Below, piece after piece: positions 338 to 4,091 of a stretch of DNA of 64,000 nt. Location of the stretch: contig NZ_JAAGOH010000005.1 in NCBI RefSeq assembly GCF_010499455.1, positions 1 through 64,000 of the forward strand, read 5' to 3'. This DNA is from Ideonella livida (lineage in GTDB: Bacteria; Pseudomonadota; Gammaproteobacteria; Burkholderiales; Burkholderiaceae_C). The position numbers and the translations under genes were made by a program. How positions within the stretch are numbered: position 1 is the first letter of the stretch; every line of letters begins with the position of its first letter. The notes beneath the pieces were generated by a model. That model made no database searches. It was not told the DNA's origin and worked only from the letters and a program-made list of their open reading frames with translations.

Positions 338-1474
338 TTACTGGGCCGGATCGCGCATGTCCCAGCGGATGGCGTCCAGTTCGTCCAGCAGTTCTTCGCT
401 GAGCTCGACCTGCCAAGCTTGCAGGCAGTCCTGCAGCTGGGGCAGCGACGTGACCCCGATCAGCGTGGAAGTCACACGCCAGCTGCGGTAGCAGAAGGCC
501 AGCGCCAGCTGGGTGGGGGTCAAGCCATGGGCCCGGGCCAGGGCGTTGTAGCGTTGGGCGGCCAGCAGGGTCTCAGGTCGAGCCCAACGCTGCTTGCGCA
601 TGGACTCGAAGCGGGAGAGCCGCCCCAGCGACGGCTGCGATGGGTCAAAACCCGGCGCATCGTACTTGCCCGTCAAGGTGCCAAAGCCCAGGGGTGAGTA
701 GGCCAGCAGGCCGAGCTGCTCCCGGTGAAGCACCTCGTCCAGGCCGTTGTCGACGCTGCGGTTGACCAGCGCGTAGGGGTTCTGCACCGAGACCACCCGC
801 GGCAGGCCATGGCGCTCGGCTTCCCGCAAGAAGGCCATCACACCCCAAGGTGTCTCGTTGGACAGGCCGATGTGGCGCACCTTGCCATCGCGCACCAGCT
901 GCGCCAGGGCACGCAACTGCGCCTCGATGGAGGTCTGCTCGGCATCTTTGGCCGGGTCCAGGTAAAGGGCGCCAAACACCGGCGCGTTGCGGTTGGGCCA
1001 GTGGATCTGGTAGAGGTCGATAACGTCGGTACGCAGGCGCTGCAGACTGGCCTCGCAGGCGGCCACGATGTCGGCCGGACGCAGGTCGCGGCCCCCCTGC
1101 CGGATCCAGGCCATGTTGCGGCTGGGCCCCGCCACCTTGGTGGCCAAAACCACCTTCTGCCGCACGCCCGGGCGCTGGGTGAACCAGTCGCCCAGGATTC
1201 GCTCCGTAGCCCCGCAGGTCTCGGCGCGGGCCGGCACCGCATACATCTCGGCAGTGTCCAGCAGGGTCACGCCGGCGTCCACCGCATGGTCCAGGATGGC
1301 ATGGGCTTGGGCGGGGTCCACCTGCTCGCCAAAAGTCATGGTTCCCAGGCCGATCGGAGACACCTGCAGGTCAGAGCCACCCAGTGGCCGGCTACCCCAG
1401 CCGGGCAGTGCGGACAGCGTCATCGGGGCATGGGGGGCGCCAGCAGGCGCTGCAGGGTGGGTGGGTGTGCTCAT
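338..1474 (-). CDS. tas: NADP(H)-dependent aldo-keto reductase, Tas-like
   Basis: A cytosolic aldo/keto reductase of 378 residues. The catalytic tetrad is visible: Asp in LLDTAEMY, Tyr in the same segment, Lys in LATKVAGPS and His in YQIHWPNRN. The fold starts at LQVSPIGLGTMTFGEQ, which closely resembles E. coli Tas (about 346 aa), and the YSPLGFGTLTGKY segment is also shared. The extra N-terminal length is a Pro/Ala-rich stretch, so translation may instead start at the Met at 1423. The gene is divergent from the DUF2975 gene across an AT-rich gap. The physiological substrate is unknown; Tas is only loosely tied to tyrosine prototrophy and prephenate/NADPH chemistry. Confidence 0.85.
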   Translation of the reverse strand: MSTPTHPAAPAGAPHAPMTLSALPGWGSRPLGGSDLQVSPIGLGTMTFGEQVDPAQAHAILDHAVDAGVTLLDTAEMYAVPARAETCGATERILGDWFTQRPGVRQKVVLATKVAGPSRNMAWIRQGGRDLRPADIVAACEASLQRLRTDVIDLYQIHWPNRNAPVFGALYLDPAKDAEQTSIEAQLRALAQLVRDGKVRHIGLSNETPWGVMAFLREAERHGLPRVVSVQNPYALVNRSVDNGLDEVLHREQLGLLAYSPLGFGTLTGKYDAPGFDPSQPSLGRLSRFESMRKQRWARPETLLAAQRYNALARAHGLTPTQLALAFCYRSWRVTSTLIGVTSLPQLQDCLQAWQVELSEELLDELDAIRWDMRDPAQ

Positions 1475-1540
1475 GCGAGTCGAGTGTGCCCCAAAGACAA
1501 GGGAGCTGCCGACTGGTGTTTTCGCGTCGTCTACCGCAGA

Positions 1541-1568
1541 ATGTTTATTGTTTTACAGTAATTTTTTT
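1541..1568 (+). promoter_or_regulatory. AT-rich divergent promoter region
   Basis: This is a markedly AT-rich patch in an otherwise GC-rich intergenic space between the divergent tas and DUF2975 genes. On the plus strand TACAGT (1554-1559) or TAATTT (1559-1564) could act as a -10 box for the start at 1578. The short palindrome TTACAGTAA (1553-1561) could be part of an operator. No convincing -35 box is present, so the exact boxes are uncertain. Confidence 0.45.
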
Positions 1569-1577
1569 CTGCAAGAC

Positions 1578-2180
1578 ATGATCAACACCCACTCCCCCGT
1601 CCATATCGCCTCACCCGTGGCCCAGGGTCCCGAGGTCGCCGCCGCGCTGCGTGGGCCCCTTCGGTTGCTGCAGGTTCTGGCCGGATTGGGCTTGCCGGTG
1701 GCCCTGCTGGCGCCCTGGCTGCCCCTGGTGGATGGGCAGGCCTGGCGCCAGCTGCTGGCACTGGGCTTTCAGCCGCAGCTGCAGGAGCTGCTGCCCGCGG
1801 GCCCTGGCCTGCCGCCCGGCATGGGCCTGCGCCTGTTGTGGGCACAGGCTCCGCTGTGCTGGACAGTGGCGGCCCTGCTGGCCTGCCTGCTGATCCTGGC
1901 GCGCTGCTGGGGCCGGGGTGACGTGCTGGCCCCGGAGCCGCTGCGCTGGCTGCAGCGGGTGAGCTGGCTGGGGGTAGGCTATGCGGTGCTGATGCCGCTG
2001 CAGGAAACCTGGACGGTGCTGGCCCTGACCTGGGACCTGCCGGCCGGCCAGCGGCTGCTGGTGCTGAGCCTGTCCGGTGGCGATTACGCCAGCGCGCTGG
2101 CTGCGTGCCTGGCGGTCCTGGTGGTGCGCATCCTGCGGGTGGCCCTGGTGGTGGCCGAGGACCAGCAGGGCTTTGTCTGA
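1578..2180 (+). CDS. DUF2975-family four-helix membrane protein
   Basis: A 200-residue integral membrane protein with four predicted helices at about residues 28-50, 92-112, 125-146 and 168-190. This layout, and an HTH gene starting 9 nt downstream, match DUF2975 proteins (Bacillus YoaS is one), which are habitually paired with a small YozG-type HTH protein. The start was placed at ATG 1578 because the frame upstream lies antisense to tas and the promoter-like patch sits just before it. The molecular function of DUF2975 is not established. A role in sensing or controlling the neighbouring regulator is inference from the conserved pairing. Confidence 0.75.
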   Translation: MINTHSPVHIASPVAQGPEVAAALRGPLRLLQVLAGLGLPVALLAPWLPLVDGQAWRQLLALGFQPQLQELLPAGPGLPPGMGLRLLWAQAPLCWTVAALLACLLILARCWGRGDVLAPEPLRWLQRVSWLGVGYAVLMPLQETWTVLALTWDLPAGQRLLVLSLSGGDYASALAACLAVLVVRILRVALVVAEDQQGFV

Positions 2181-2189
2181 GGCGCTGGC

Positions 2190-2477
2190 ATGCCCATCAT
2201 CGTGCACCTGGATGTGATGCTGGCCCGGCGCAAGATGCGCTCGCGGGAGCTGGCCGAGCACATCGGCATCACCGAGGCCAACCTCTCGCTGCTCAAGTCC
2301 GGCAAGGTCCGGGGCGTACGCTTCGAAACCCTGGCCGCCATCTGCGCCGCCCTGTCCTGCCAACCGGGTGACCTGCTCTCCTGGACACCAGACCCATCCG
2401 ATGCGACGCCGGCCGGCGCGACCCGTCCCGAGGACACCGGCGCAGACCCTCTCTGCCCCCCCGACGCCCCCGCATGA
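2190..2477 (+). CDS. YozG-type HTH (Cro/C1 family) transcriptional regulator
   Basis: A 95-residue protein. Residues 1-68 form a compact Cro/C1 helix-turn-helix: MLARRKMRSRELAEHIGI, then TEANLSLLKSGK as the recognition region, then FETLAAICAALSCQPGDLL. This matches the short YozG/XRE group. The rest is a Pro/Ala-rich tail of about 27 residues. It follows the DUF2975 gene by 9 nt and its last codons overlap the next start (ATGA at 2474-2477), so the three genes are probably co-transcribed and translationally coupled. Targets are unknown; autoregulation from the upstream AT-rich region is plausible but not shown. Confidence 0.8.
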   Translation: MPIIVHLDVMLARRKMRSRELAEHIGITEANLSLLKSGKVRGVRFETLAAICAALSCQPGDLLSWTPDPSDATPAGATRPEDTGADPLCPPDAPA

Positions 2478-3154
2478 ACGACATCCAGCGCCAGCGGCTG
2501 ATCGGCTTGGCGGTGCTGGCCGCGCATGTCGGCGTGCTGCTCGGGCTCCCCATTGGCGCTCCGCCGCCCGCCGTGCGCCGTGCCCCCCAGGGCCAGGCAC
2601 CGCAGGCGGCCCAGCCCCAGGCACCGTTGCAACTGCTGTGGCTCGCCACCGGCCCGAGCGCCGGGCACCCCACGCCTATGCGCCCTGACGCGCGCCGCCC
2701 GGTGTCATCCGCGCGTGGAGTGCCCTCTCCCCTGACGGCCCCCCGGTCCGTGCCCAGGGCGCACGTGCCCGCCCCGGCCCCCGTGGCCGACAGCAGCACT
2801 ACCGCCCCGGCCACACCGCACAGCGACAGCACGCCCATCGCCCTGACAGCCCGCGCGCCGGAGCCTGCCACTGGCAGCAGCGCGCCCACGCCCGCCAGCG
2901 CCCCCTCCCGGCTCACGCCGGAGTCCACGCGCCAGGCCTGGATCGGCATCGCCCGTCAGCCGTCCCTGGCCACTCGGTCCCTGGAGGCGGCAGGCGGCAT
3001 CACGCCGCCCAGCGCAGCGCAGCGCATGGCGCAGGCGGCCTCGTCAGCCGGCCGGGGCGACTGCAGCCGGGGCGAATACGCCGGCGCGGGCATGGGCCTG
3101 TTGAGCCTGCCGGCCCTGGCCTACGCCGCCGCCGCCGGACACTGCGCACGGTAG
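2474..3154 (+). CDS. Proline-rich, N-terminally anchored protein of unknown function
   Basis: A 226-residue protein not assigned to a named family. Residues 8-26 (LIGLAVLAAHVGVLLGLPIG) form one hydrophobic segment, either a signal anchor or an uncleaved TonB-like N-terminus. Residues 30-190 are dominated by Pro, Ala, Ser and Thr, like a periplasm-spanning linker. The last 35 residues contain two cysteines (DCSRGEY and GHCAR) around LLSLPALAYAAAAG, which looks like a small disulfide-closed module. I recall similar DC...LL.LP.L...A...C endings in other Burkholderiales hypothetical proteins, but could not check this. It overlaps the HTH gene by 4 nt. Confidence 0.6.
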   Translation: MNDIQRQRLIGLAVLAAHVGVLLGLPIGAPPPAVRRAPQGQAPQAAQPQAPLQLLWLATGPSAGHPTPMRPDARRPVSSARGVPSPLTAPRSVPRAHVPAPAPVADSSTTAPATPHSDSTPIALTARAPEPATGSSAPTPASAPSRLTPESTRQAWIGIARQPSLATRSLEAAGGITPPSAAQRMAQAASSAGRGDCSRGEYAGAGMGLLSLPALAYAAAAGHCAR

Positions 3155-3190
3155 GACTGCCCCCCAGAGGCCAGTCTGCCGCGCTCCGGC

Positions 3191-3976
3191 TCATCGCCAG
3201 CTTGGCGCCCGCTTGTCCAGGAAGGCCTGCACCCCTTCCAGCGCGGCGGGGTCCATCATGTTGCAGGCCATGGTCTGGCCGGCATCGGCAAAAGCGGCTT
3301 CCATGCCGGCCTGGACCTGCCGGTAGAACAGGGCCTTGCCCAGGGCCACCGCCTCACGCGGCTTGGACACGATGCTGGCCACCAGGCGTTCGGTCTCCTC
3401 CTCCAGGGCCTGCGGCTCCACCACCCGGTTGACCAGCCCCAGGCGACGGGCTTCCTCGGCGTCGATGAAGTCGCCGGTGACCAGCATCTCAAACGCTGCC
3501 TTGCGGGGAATGTTGCGGCTCAGGGCCACCGCCGGCGTCGAACAGAACAGGCCCAGGTTGACGCCGCTGACGGCAAACCGGGCCGTGCGGGCCGCCACCG
3601 CCAGGTCACACAGGGCCACCAGCTGGCAGCCCGCCGCGGTGGCCACCCCCTGCACCTGGGCAATGACAGGCACCGGCAGGCGCTGCAAGGCCATCATGAC
3701 CTTGGTGCACCGGGCAAACAGCTGCTGGTAGTAGGCCAGCGAGGGCTCGGCGCGCATCTCGCGCAGGTCGTGCCCGGCGCAGTAAGCTCTGCCGGCGGCG
3801 GCCAACACCACCACGCGCAGCGTCGGGTCGACCACCAGTGAGTCCAGCTCGGCTTGCAAGGCATCCAGCAGGGCCTCGGACAAGGCATTGAAGGCCTGTG
3901 GCCGGTTCAGGGTGAGTGTGACCACACCGCGGCCGTCCGCATGGCGCCGCAGCAGGGGATCGTCGGTGGTGAGCAT
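3191..3976 (-). CDS. ECHDC3-like enoyl-CoA hydratase/isomerase family protein
   Basis: A 261-residue crotonase-fold protein. RPQAFNALSEALL and AGHDLREM mark CoA binding and the first oxyanion strand, and GVATAAGCQLVALCD gives the second oxyanion loop. True hydratases carry Glu in GGGCE and again near the following helix. Here the first position is Gln (AAGCQ) and the second segment reads GVNLGLFCSTPAVALSR, without Glu. This pattern and the GLFCSTP motif match eukaryotic ECHDC3 and its bacterial relatives, so hydratase activity is doubtful although acyl-CoA binding is likely. ATG 3976 is preceded by AGGAG and by a TACAGT -10 box at 4011-4016; an upstream in-frame extension to 4072 is not favoured. 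Confidence 0.85.
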   Translation of the reverse strand: MLTTDDPLLRRHADGRGVVTLTLNRPQAFNALSEALLDALQAELDSLVVDPTLRVVVLAAAGRAYCAGHDLREMRAEPSLAYYQQLFARCTKVMMALQRLPVPVIAQVQGVATAAGCQLVALCDLAVAARTARFAVSGVNLGLFCSTPAVALSRNIPRKAAFEMLVTGDFIDAEEARRLGLVNRVVEPQALEEETERLVASIVSKPREAVALGKALFYRQVQAGMEAAFADAGQTMACNMMDPAALEGVQAFLDKRAPSWR

Positions 3977-4010
3977 GGAAGGGCTCCTGAGGGCTCTTGG
4001 TGGGCGCTTT

Positions 4011-4016
4011 ACTGTA
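4011..4016 (-). promoter_or_regulatory. -10 box for the ECHDC3-like gene
   Basis: Read on the minus strand this is TACAGT, about 35 nt before the ATG at 3976 and followed by an AGGAG ribosome site. No good -35 hexamer lies at 16-18 nt spacing. Confidence 0.45.
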
Positions 4017-4044
4017 GTGGCGGGGCGCACGCGACCGATGCCGG

Positions 4045-4091
4045 GCTTGCCCGGGGCCAGCGCCGCGCCCACGGCAAGCGCTGGCTACACT
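4045..4091 (+). promoter_or_regulatory. Inverted repeat and -10 box abutting the DUF815 start codon
   Basis: GCTTGCC (4045-4051) and GGCAAGC (4073-4079) form a 7-bp inverted repeat with a 21-nt spacer. TACACT at 4086-4091 is a good -10 hexamer and lies only 8 nt from ATG 4100. Initiation the usual 6-8 nt past the box would give a leaderless or nearly leaderless mRNA. The repeat sits where a repressor or activator could bind. Confidence 0.45.

Follow-up and report, generated by a model that had tools for sequence, protein, structure and literature searches.

The stretch of Ideonella livida DNA analysed here, referred to as the window, is 64,000 nucleotides long and carries towards its left end three consecutive plus-strand genes. 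The first two are separated by 9 nt, while the second and third share an ATGA overlap (2474-2477). The initial annotation had described this arrangement, and its coordinates are correct. The locus contains the following features:

338-1474, minus strand: aldo/keto reductase gene, divergent to the trio, at the left end of the window
1544-1562, no strand: operator candidate TTTATTG-TTTTA-CAGTAAT, an interrupted palindrome (7-5-7) of 19 bp
1578-2180, plus strand: gene 1, DUF2975 (YoaS-like) membrane protein, ATG start, 200 aa
2190-2477, plus strand: gene 2, YozG-type HTH_26 (Cro/C1) regulator, presumed repressor, 95 aa
2474-3154, plus strand: gene 3, the third protein, with His anchor, Pro-rich stalk and Cys-pair tip, 226 aa
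2492-2563, plus strand: residues 7-30 of the third protein, a hydrophobic anchor by hydropathy, with the invariant His18
2558-2923, plus strand: Pro/Ala-rich stalk of the third protein, residues 29-150, with 28 Pro in 122 residues
2903-3151, plus strand: C-terminal tip of the third protein, from a 50-row tip alignment, with Cys197 and Cys224 and the terminus GDCSRGEYAGAGMGLLSLPALAYAAAAGHCAR
3191-4072, minus strand: enoyl-CoA hydratase open frame, 3' of the trio

An AT-rich promoter patch had also been proposed at 1541-1577. The sequence bears this patch out, and within it the conserved palindrome at 1544-1562 makes a strong operator candidate. Scans of 1450-3400 detected neither a consensus sigma-70 promoter nor a terminator. 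An aldo/keto reductase match and an acyl-CoA synthetase match are each present in 31 of 52 non-orphan loci, counted anywhere in the locus at any distance and on any strand; in the window, the enoyl-CoA hydratase takes the place of the acyl-CoA synthetase. These mostly divergent or convergent neighbours mark a fairly stable chromosomal site.

Gene 1 encodes what is, by sequence, a diverged DUF2975 protein at the edge of the Pfam cut-off. Against PF11188 it scores 25 bits as a whole protein (hmmscan) and 29 bits in a six-frame search, the cut-off being 27; the 11 other DUF2975 matches of the genus score 41-70 bits. The assignment is supported by the position of the gene and by 41 aligned relatives, to which identity is 22-35%. 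The product of gene 2 matches HTH_26 (PF13443) with 84.8 bits (E 5e-24; cut-off 22). Alignments of 68-102 columns with 11 relatives from the genus show 66-87% identity. The HTH proteins of the genus are 71-95 residues long. Relatives of this protein are also present in 15 phage records (H41-H55), including Listeria and Faecalibacterium phages.

DUF2975 is present in 12 of 16 genus genomes and in 60 of 398 phylum genomes, and the 299 family genomes contain 65 matches, 59 of them above the cut-off. Genes for DUF2975 and YozG-like HTH proteins had been called habitual neighbours, and they are: an HTH_26 gene adjoins DUF2975 in all 29 newly fetched, best-scoring phylum loci. Among the family DUF2975 matches with no third-gene match behind them, the HTH gene is present in 25 of 30; the five without one nearby (L267, L269-L272) are all below the cut-off. 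One genome (G677, locus L213) has two tandem DUF2975 matches ahead of a single HTH gene.

The structural model of the DUF2975 protein (pLDDT 77.5, pTM 0.68) contains long helices at residues 18-51, 82-112, 119-150 and 167-199. Foldseek returned nothing at E < 1 for this model (best 1.3), and VIA-align gave Z up to 8.9, for the most part with GPCRs, BAR domains and designed helical chains, a result that says little about a helical bundle. The C-terminal tail ends alike (ENELTI, ENAEFV or similar) in 26 of 33 rows, out of 41 in the alignment, although the gap to the HTH gene varies between -1 and 45 nt. Of the other rows, two from Streptomyces differ and five took the wrong frame. Since similar tails occur at such varying gaps, the tail would seem to be more than a ribosome site. 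It is likely to be a contact with the HTH protein.

The strongest and most testable result of the analysis is the operator candidate. In the window, the 18-base palindrome pattern occurs once at up to three mismatches (shuffle mean 0.00). All 54 operons examined have a consensus 19-mer, TTTAYTG-TTTTA-CARTAAA, upstream of their DUF2975 gene; they comprise 42 third-gene loci and 12 genus operons, with 50 distinct rows and three genomes counted twice. Between 12 and 19 of the 19 letters match the seed, the weakest rows being L117 and L119 (12/19), and eight columns are invariant in the 49 distinct full-length rows. The palindrome of the window is imperfect. Across the 54 rows, the number of matching arm positions, out of seven, is four in 7 rows, five in 23, six in 21 and seven in 3. 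The 19-bp palindrome is thus described here as a candidate for the operator of the pair's operon, conserved both in sequence and in position.

Of the 299 family genomes, 41 contain the exact 17-mer core, always as a single copy, whereas a control search with the reversed pattern gave 0. Thirty-nine of these sites are located 168-296 nt before a DUF2975 match, the other two being those of G178 and G308. A YozG-type HTH gene lies about 445-757 nt away from all 40 core sites checked; the site left out of this check is in G236, which has a DUF2975 match. G308 (L185) has a broken, short DUF2975 divided between two frames, and the HTH gene and an anchored Pro-rich frame in the third slot are still open. 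In G178 (L165/L243, C1:1849305), DUF2975 is followed by the HTH gene, and a PF00144 serine hydrolase (E 1.4e-35) is divergent across the same site, so that a single operator copy may serve both directions.

A search of the host genome at up to two mismatches returned no second site and gave no sign of a wider regulon. The host genome has seven HTH_26 matches, and other proteins could therefore bind the operator candidate. In several Ideonella relatives, TTGACG is located 17 nt upstream of TACATT, and the latter lies inside the site; a bound repressor would thus cover the presumed -10 element.

The same operator geometry is seen in other classes, in Bacillota and in Streptomyces. It was evaluated with a half-site score derived from the family operons, the weights of which were set after the family, Bacillota and Streptomyces sites had been seen, so that the score is not blind. 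With a 5-nt spacer, a score of 9 is reached by 28 of 28 family, 14 of 28 phylum and 9 of 12 plasmid loci; with control spacers of 4 and 6 nt, respectively, it is reached by 1 and 6 family, 6 and 4 phylum, and 0 and 3 plasmid loci. The family and phylum sets had 29 loci each, one of which was too short and was dropped, and the plasmid set includes one Mitsuaria locus and three loci (L218, L223 and L224) with a guessed gene start. With 60 shuffles per locus, which sets a floor of 0.016, p is at most 0.05 for 28 of 28 family, 13 of 28 phylum and 10 of 12 plasmid loci. Ten of the 14 phylum loci below the score belong to a single taxonomic family (f44). The scored stretch ended 420 nt upstream, and the site of L197, at -492, was thus missed.

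Individual sites can be given for several of these groups. In two loci from Priestia and one from Peribacillus, the site is TTTATTGTAAAACGATAAA and DUF2975 follows 65-67 nt further on; it is ATTATTGTTTTATAATAAT in Lactococcus, TTTATCGTTTTTCGATAAA in Enterococcus raffinosus and ACTATCGATTTTCGATAGA in Streptomyces. The Klebsiella pneumoniae plasmid NZ_CP097193.1 (L230, 20800-24600) carries a run of five genes, in the order MipA/OmpV, PF00144 serine hydrolase, a gene without assignment, DUF2975 (20.8 bits, below the cut-off) and HTH. There is no site ahead of DUF2975, the fourth gene, but there is one ahead of the first gene, MipA/OmpV, a position that fits an operon operator. The same kinds of gene as in this run appear in a description of the mcr-8.6 island (PMC12708576).

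The operator candidate tracks the pair and not the third gene, since pairs without a third-gene match carry the site, and 18 of the 19 third-gene loci without the pair have none at up to three mismatches. The remaining locus, L133, where the HTH gene is kept, has one site with three mismatches. Of the 25 pairs that have a confirmed HTH gene but no third-gene match, 23 carry a site with a score of at least 9 in the 1,100 nt ahead of the HTH gene, as counted without a shuffle control.

The third gene had been regarded as the new element of the locus, and a neighbourhood check had been proposed to see whether relatives keep it beside the pair. In the genus, it lies behind the HTH gene in 9 of the 12 DUF2975-bearing genomes, and in 9 of the 10 loci that are testable, so that the absence from close relatives, named in the initial annotation as a refutation, is not what is seen. 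G011 (L022) has the pair without the third gene, and two loci (L014 and L021) run off their contigs. Furthermore, G012 has the tail of a third gene at the end of another contig, and in G015 the third gene is present and DUF2975 is absent. The nine genus proteins, one of which is cut by a contig end, align over their full length with 32-37% identity. In the family, the third-gene profile matches in 56 of 299 genomes, in a search that scored ten candidates per genome and may have missed some.

The third gene is thus kept as a partner of the pair across the family, while none of the 36 members scanned matches a Pfam or NCBIfam entry above its cut-off. Against Pfam, these members gave nothing better than E 0.08, and no TonB family is among their matches up to E 1. 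Against NCBIfam, 33 of 36 match GltJ (best E 1.5e-5), the single listed match having 15 bits against a cut-off of 450 and lying in the Pro-rich part, and 2 of 36 match a TonB model (best E 0.017) among other weak matches.

The protein begins with a hydrophobic helix in which one His is invariant, continues with a Pro-rich stretch and ends in a tip. His18 is invariant in the nine genus proteins, and 36 proteins have the equivalent His. The tip is of the type GDCLKGE(F/Y)xGGGMGLLSxP...GKC; in the 50-row tip alignment, D53, C54, G57, G61, G63, G65, S68 and P70 are invariant, and C81 is present in at least 90% of rows. The model of the tip has four helices at low confidence (mean pLDDT 62.7, pTM 0.25), too low for a useful fold search. 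The third protein is presumably exported and anchored at its N-terminus, and it may span the periplasm. A search of 274 class genomes with the tip alignment, which scored up to 20 candidates in each, gave a match in the host genome alone. However, the third slot of L197, a locus outside the family but within the order, holds a Pro-rich protein with an anchor and a variant tip, which indicates that the tip profile under-reports. The third-gene profile gave no match on plasmids, where the search is insensitive, because the Mitsuaria plasmid record does have a gene in the third slot.

In 35 of the 56 family genomes, the third gene is directly behind a same-strand DUF2975 match; in five, DUF2975 is elsewhere, and 16 have no DUF2975 match. 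The third gene starts 213-413 nt behind the DUF2975 match in 34 of the 35, and 832 nt behind it in G305. Two second matches, one in G168 and one in G305, were excluded; the 832 nt of G305 refers to a C-terminal piece, and the excluded piece is nearer. The 16 genomes without a DUF2975 match divide into eight with strong third-gene matches (E 1e-14 or better) and eight with weak ones (7.5e-9 to 6.7e-4). The weak matches may be chance Pro-rich matches, although one of them, G178, actually has a DUF2975 gene that was overlooked by the HMM. Counted by locus, DUF2975 and HTH are upstream in 42 of 61 third-gene loci, and the remaining 19 include two at contig edges (L139 and L149) and L133, which has the HTH gene and no DUF2975 by the model used. 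A Rhizobacter MAG (L143) has a lone third gene between the aldo/keto reductase and the acyl-CoA synthetase, with no pair.

Conversely, 30 of the 65 family DUF2975 matches have no third-gene match behind them. The initial annotation had suggested that the three proteins could form a signalling relay across the envelope. Since the third gene is also found without the pair, a relay that requires all three is unsupported. The trio may still have a signalling role, and the idea narrows to an autoregulated envelope module in which the cargo looks swappable.

The contents of the third slot point in the same direction. Where the HTH gene is confirmed and the third-gene match is lacking (25 pairs), the slot holds an anchored Pro-rich protein in 7 cases, a signal-peptide or lipoprotein-like protein in 7, and no evident exported protein in 11, as judged by eye with uncertain start codons. 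The anchored Pro-rich proteins of L249 and L250 have one tip type, and those of L252, L253 and L260 another; the end of L247 is unclear, and L273 is cut by its contig. Among the signal-peptide or lipoprotein-like proteins, those of L244, L256, L261 and L262 are alike, the others being in L245, L246 and L266. From these sequences, the third slot looks to carry swappable exported proteins.

An alternative is that the third gene is functionally independent of the pair and has only the promoter in common with it. The eight strong matches in genomes without a DUF2975 match are consistent with this, as is the lone gene of L143. Nevertheless, independence seems unlikely given that the third gene directly follows the pair in most of the genomes that have it, that its overlap with the HTH gene in the window recurs in a Mitsuaria record, and that other anchored Pro-rich proteins with unlike tips occupy the same slot.

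The reading that we favour, with a probability of about 0.5, is that the locus is a self-contained, autoregulated envelope module, in which the HTH protein represses its own operon, DUF2975 is its partner and the third slot provides an exported cargo. In such a module, the HTH protein would bind the palindrome at 1544-1562 as a dimer, for which the conserved site is indirect evidence, and would repress its own operon only. DUF2975 would be a four-helix inner-membrane protein and the presumed partner of the repressor, and its conserved cytosolic tail may capture or release the repressor depending on how the membrane or the envelope fares. Once repression is relieved, the operon would be induced and more of the exported third-slot protein would be made; in Ideonella, this protein would be held by its N-terminal anchor, with the Pro-rich stalk and the Cys-pair tip in the periplasm. 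We infer a local switch, the sole output of which would be the operon itself.

It is also conceivable that the pair resembles a membrane toxin and its antitoxin. Free DUF2975 would then harm the membrane, the HTH protein would be an autorepressing antitoxin and the third gene a passenger. The presumably autorepressing Xre protein, the one operator and the short membrane partner have the look of such a system. Makarova et al. (2009; PMC2701414) counted 32 Xre/YoaS-like pairs among their toxin-antitoxin candidates and set them aside, since none of the type II systems known then included a membrane component; in their reply to a reviewer, they noted that a membrane protein as the putative toxin could mean novel toxin-antitoxin systems. 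This possibility is nonetheless improbable here. The operon often has common neighbours (aldo/keto reductase and acyl-CoA synthetase, each in 31/52), and a conserved exported cargo is unlike toxin-antitoxin systems. In addition, DUF2975 is broken in G308 and undetected in L133, where the HTH gene and the third-slot frame are kept, although the loss of a toxin would also be tolerable.

Equally hard to favour is the proposal that DUF2975 is a permease for a compound bound by the HTH protein, which would be a ligand-controlled repressor of its own transporter with the third protein as an envelope accessory: YoaS-like proteins were termed 'a membrane protein, likely permease' in the same study (PMC2701414) and the host genome has a single operator site, but an HTH protein of 71-95 residues is barely larger than its DNA-binding domain and leaves scant space for a ligand pocket, while DUF2975 is modelled as four long helices with uninformative structural matches.

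A bolder reading extends the idea beyond the family. DUF2975-HTH would then be a plug-in sensor cassette used across bacteria, its regulon limited to a single operon: the membrane protein would hold or free a near-minimal repressor, which would read a dedicated 19-bp operator in front of a lineage-specific exported cargo. The cargo would range from anchored Pro-rich stalks, whose Cys-pair tips are of three or more unlike kinds, to lipoproteins, secreted proteins and a serine hydrolase with MipA. This wider proposal is tentative, and we hold it as somewhat doubtful.

YoaS/YozG-type pairs span several phyla, and their role is unassigned in the literature searched, which was mostly without subscription journals and gave no function for the DUF2975-HTH pair or for the operator; the operator sequence strings are also absent from it. 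A Streptomyces cluster has cppC (DUF2975) and cppD (HTH) adjacent to each other (PMC7827011), and a YozG gene is included in a table of a Snodgrassella paper (PMC9239279). With a defined operator candidate, whose exact core occurs once in each family genome that has it, and with the exported genes behind it listed, the role of the pair becomes directly testable. Protein family libraries would gain a new entry in the third-gene family.

The closest known counterpart is the Bacillus YoaS/YozG pair, which has the same families (DUF2975 and HTH_26) in the same order as the Ideonella pair; B. subtilis itself served only as a control match for DUF2975. The plasmid pairs of Priestia and Peribacillus, annotated as DUF2975 followed by HTH, have an operator of the same kind as Ideonella, but no gene annotated like the third gene of Ideonella stands behind them.

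Parallels can also be drawn with unrelated systems. The LytTR regulatory systems (BrsRM/HdrRM) consist of two genes, for a membrane inhibitor and a DNA-binding regulator, and are autoregulated. They are similar to the Ideonella pair in combining a membrane protein with a small regulator, whereas the DNA-binding domain and the membrane family are unrelated. In envelope proteins of the TonB/TolA type, the N-terminal anchor contains a His and is joined by a Pro-rich stalk. The third protein shares both the anchor His and the stalk, but its tip is short, helical in a low-confidence prediction, and has a Cys pair. Finally, Xre toxin-antitoxin pairs are alike in their small Xre protein and presumed autorepression, while the Ideonella locus has, in addition, a membrane partner and an exported cargo.
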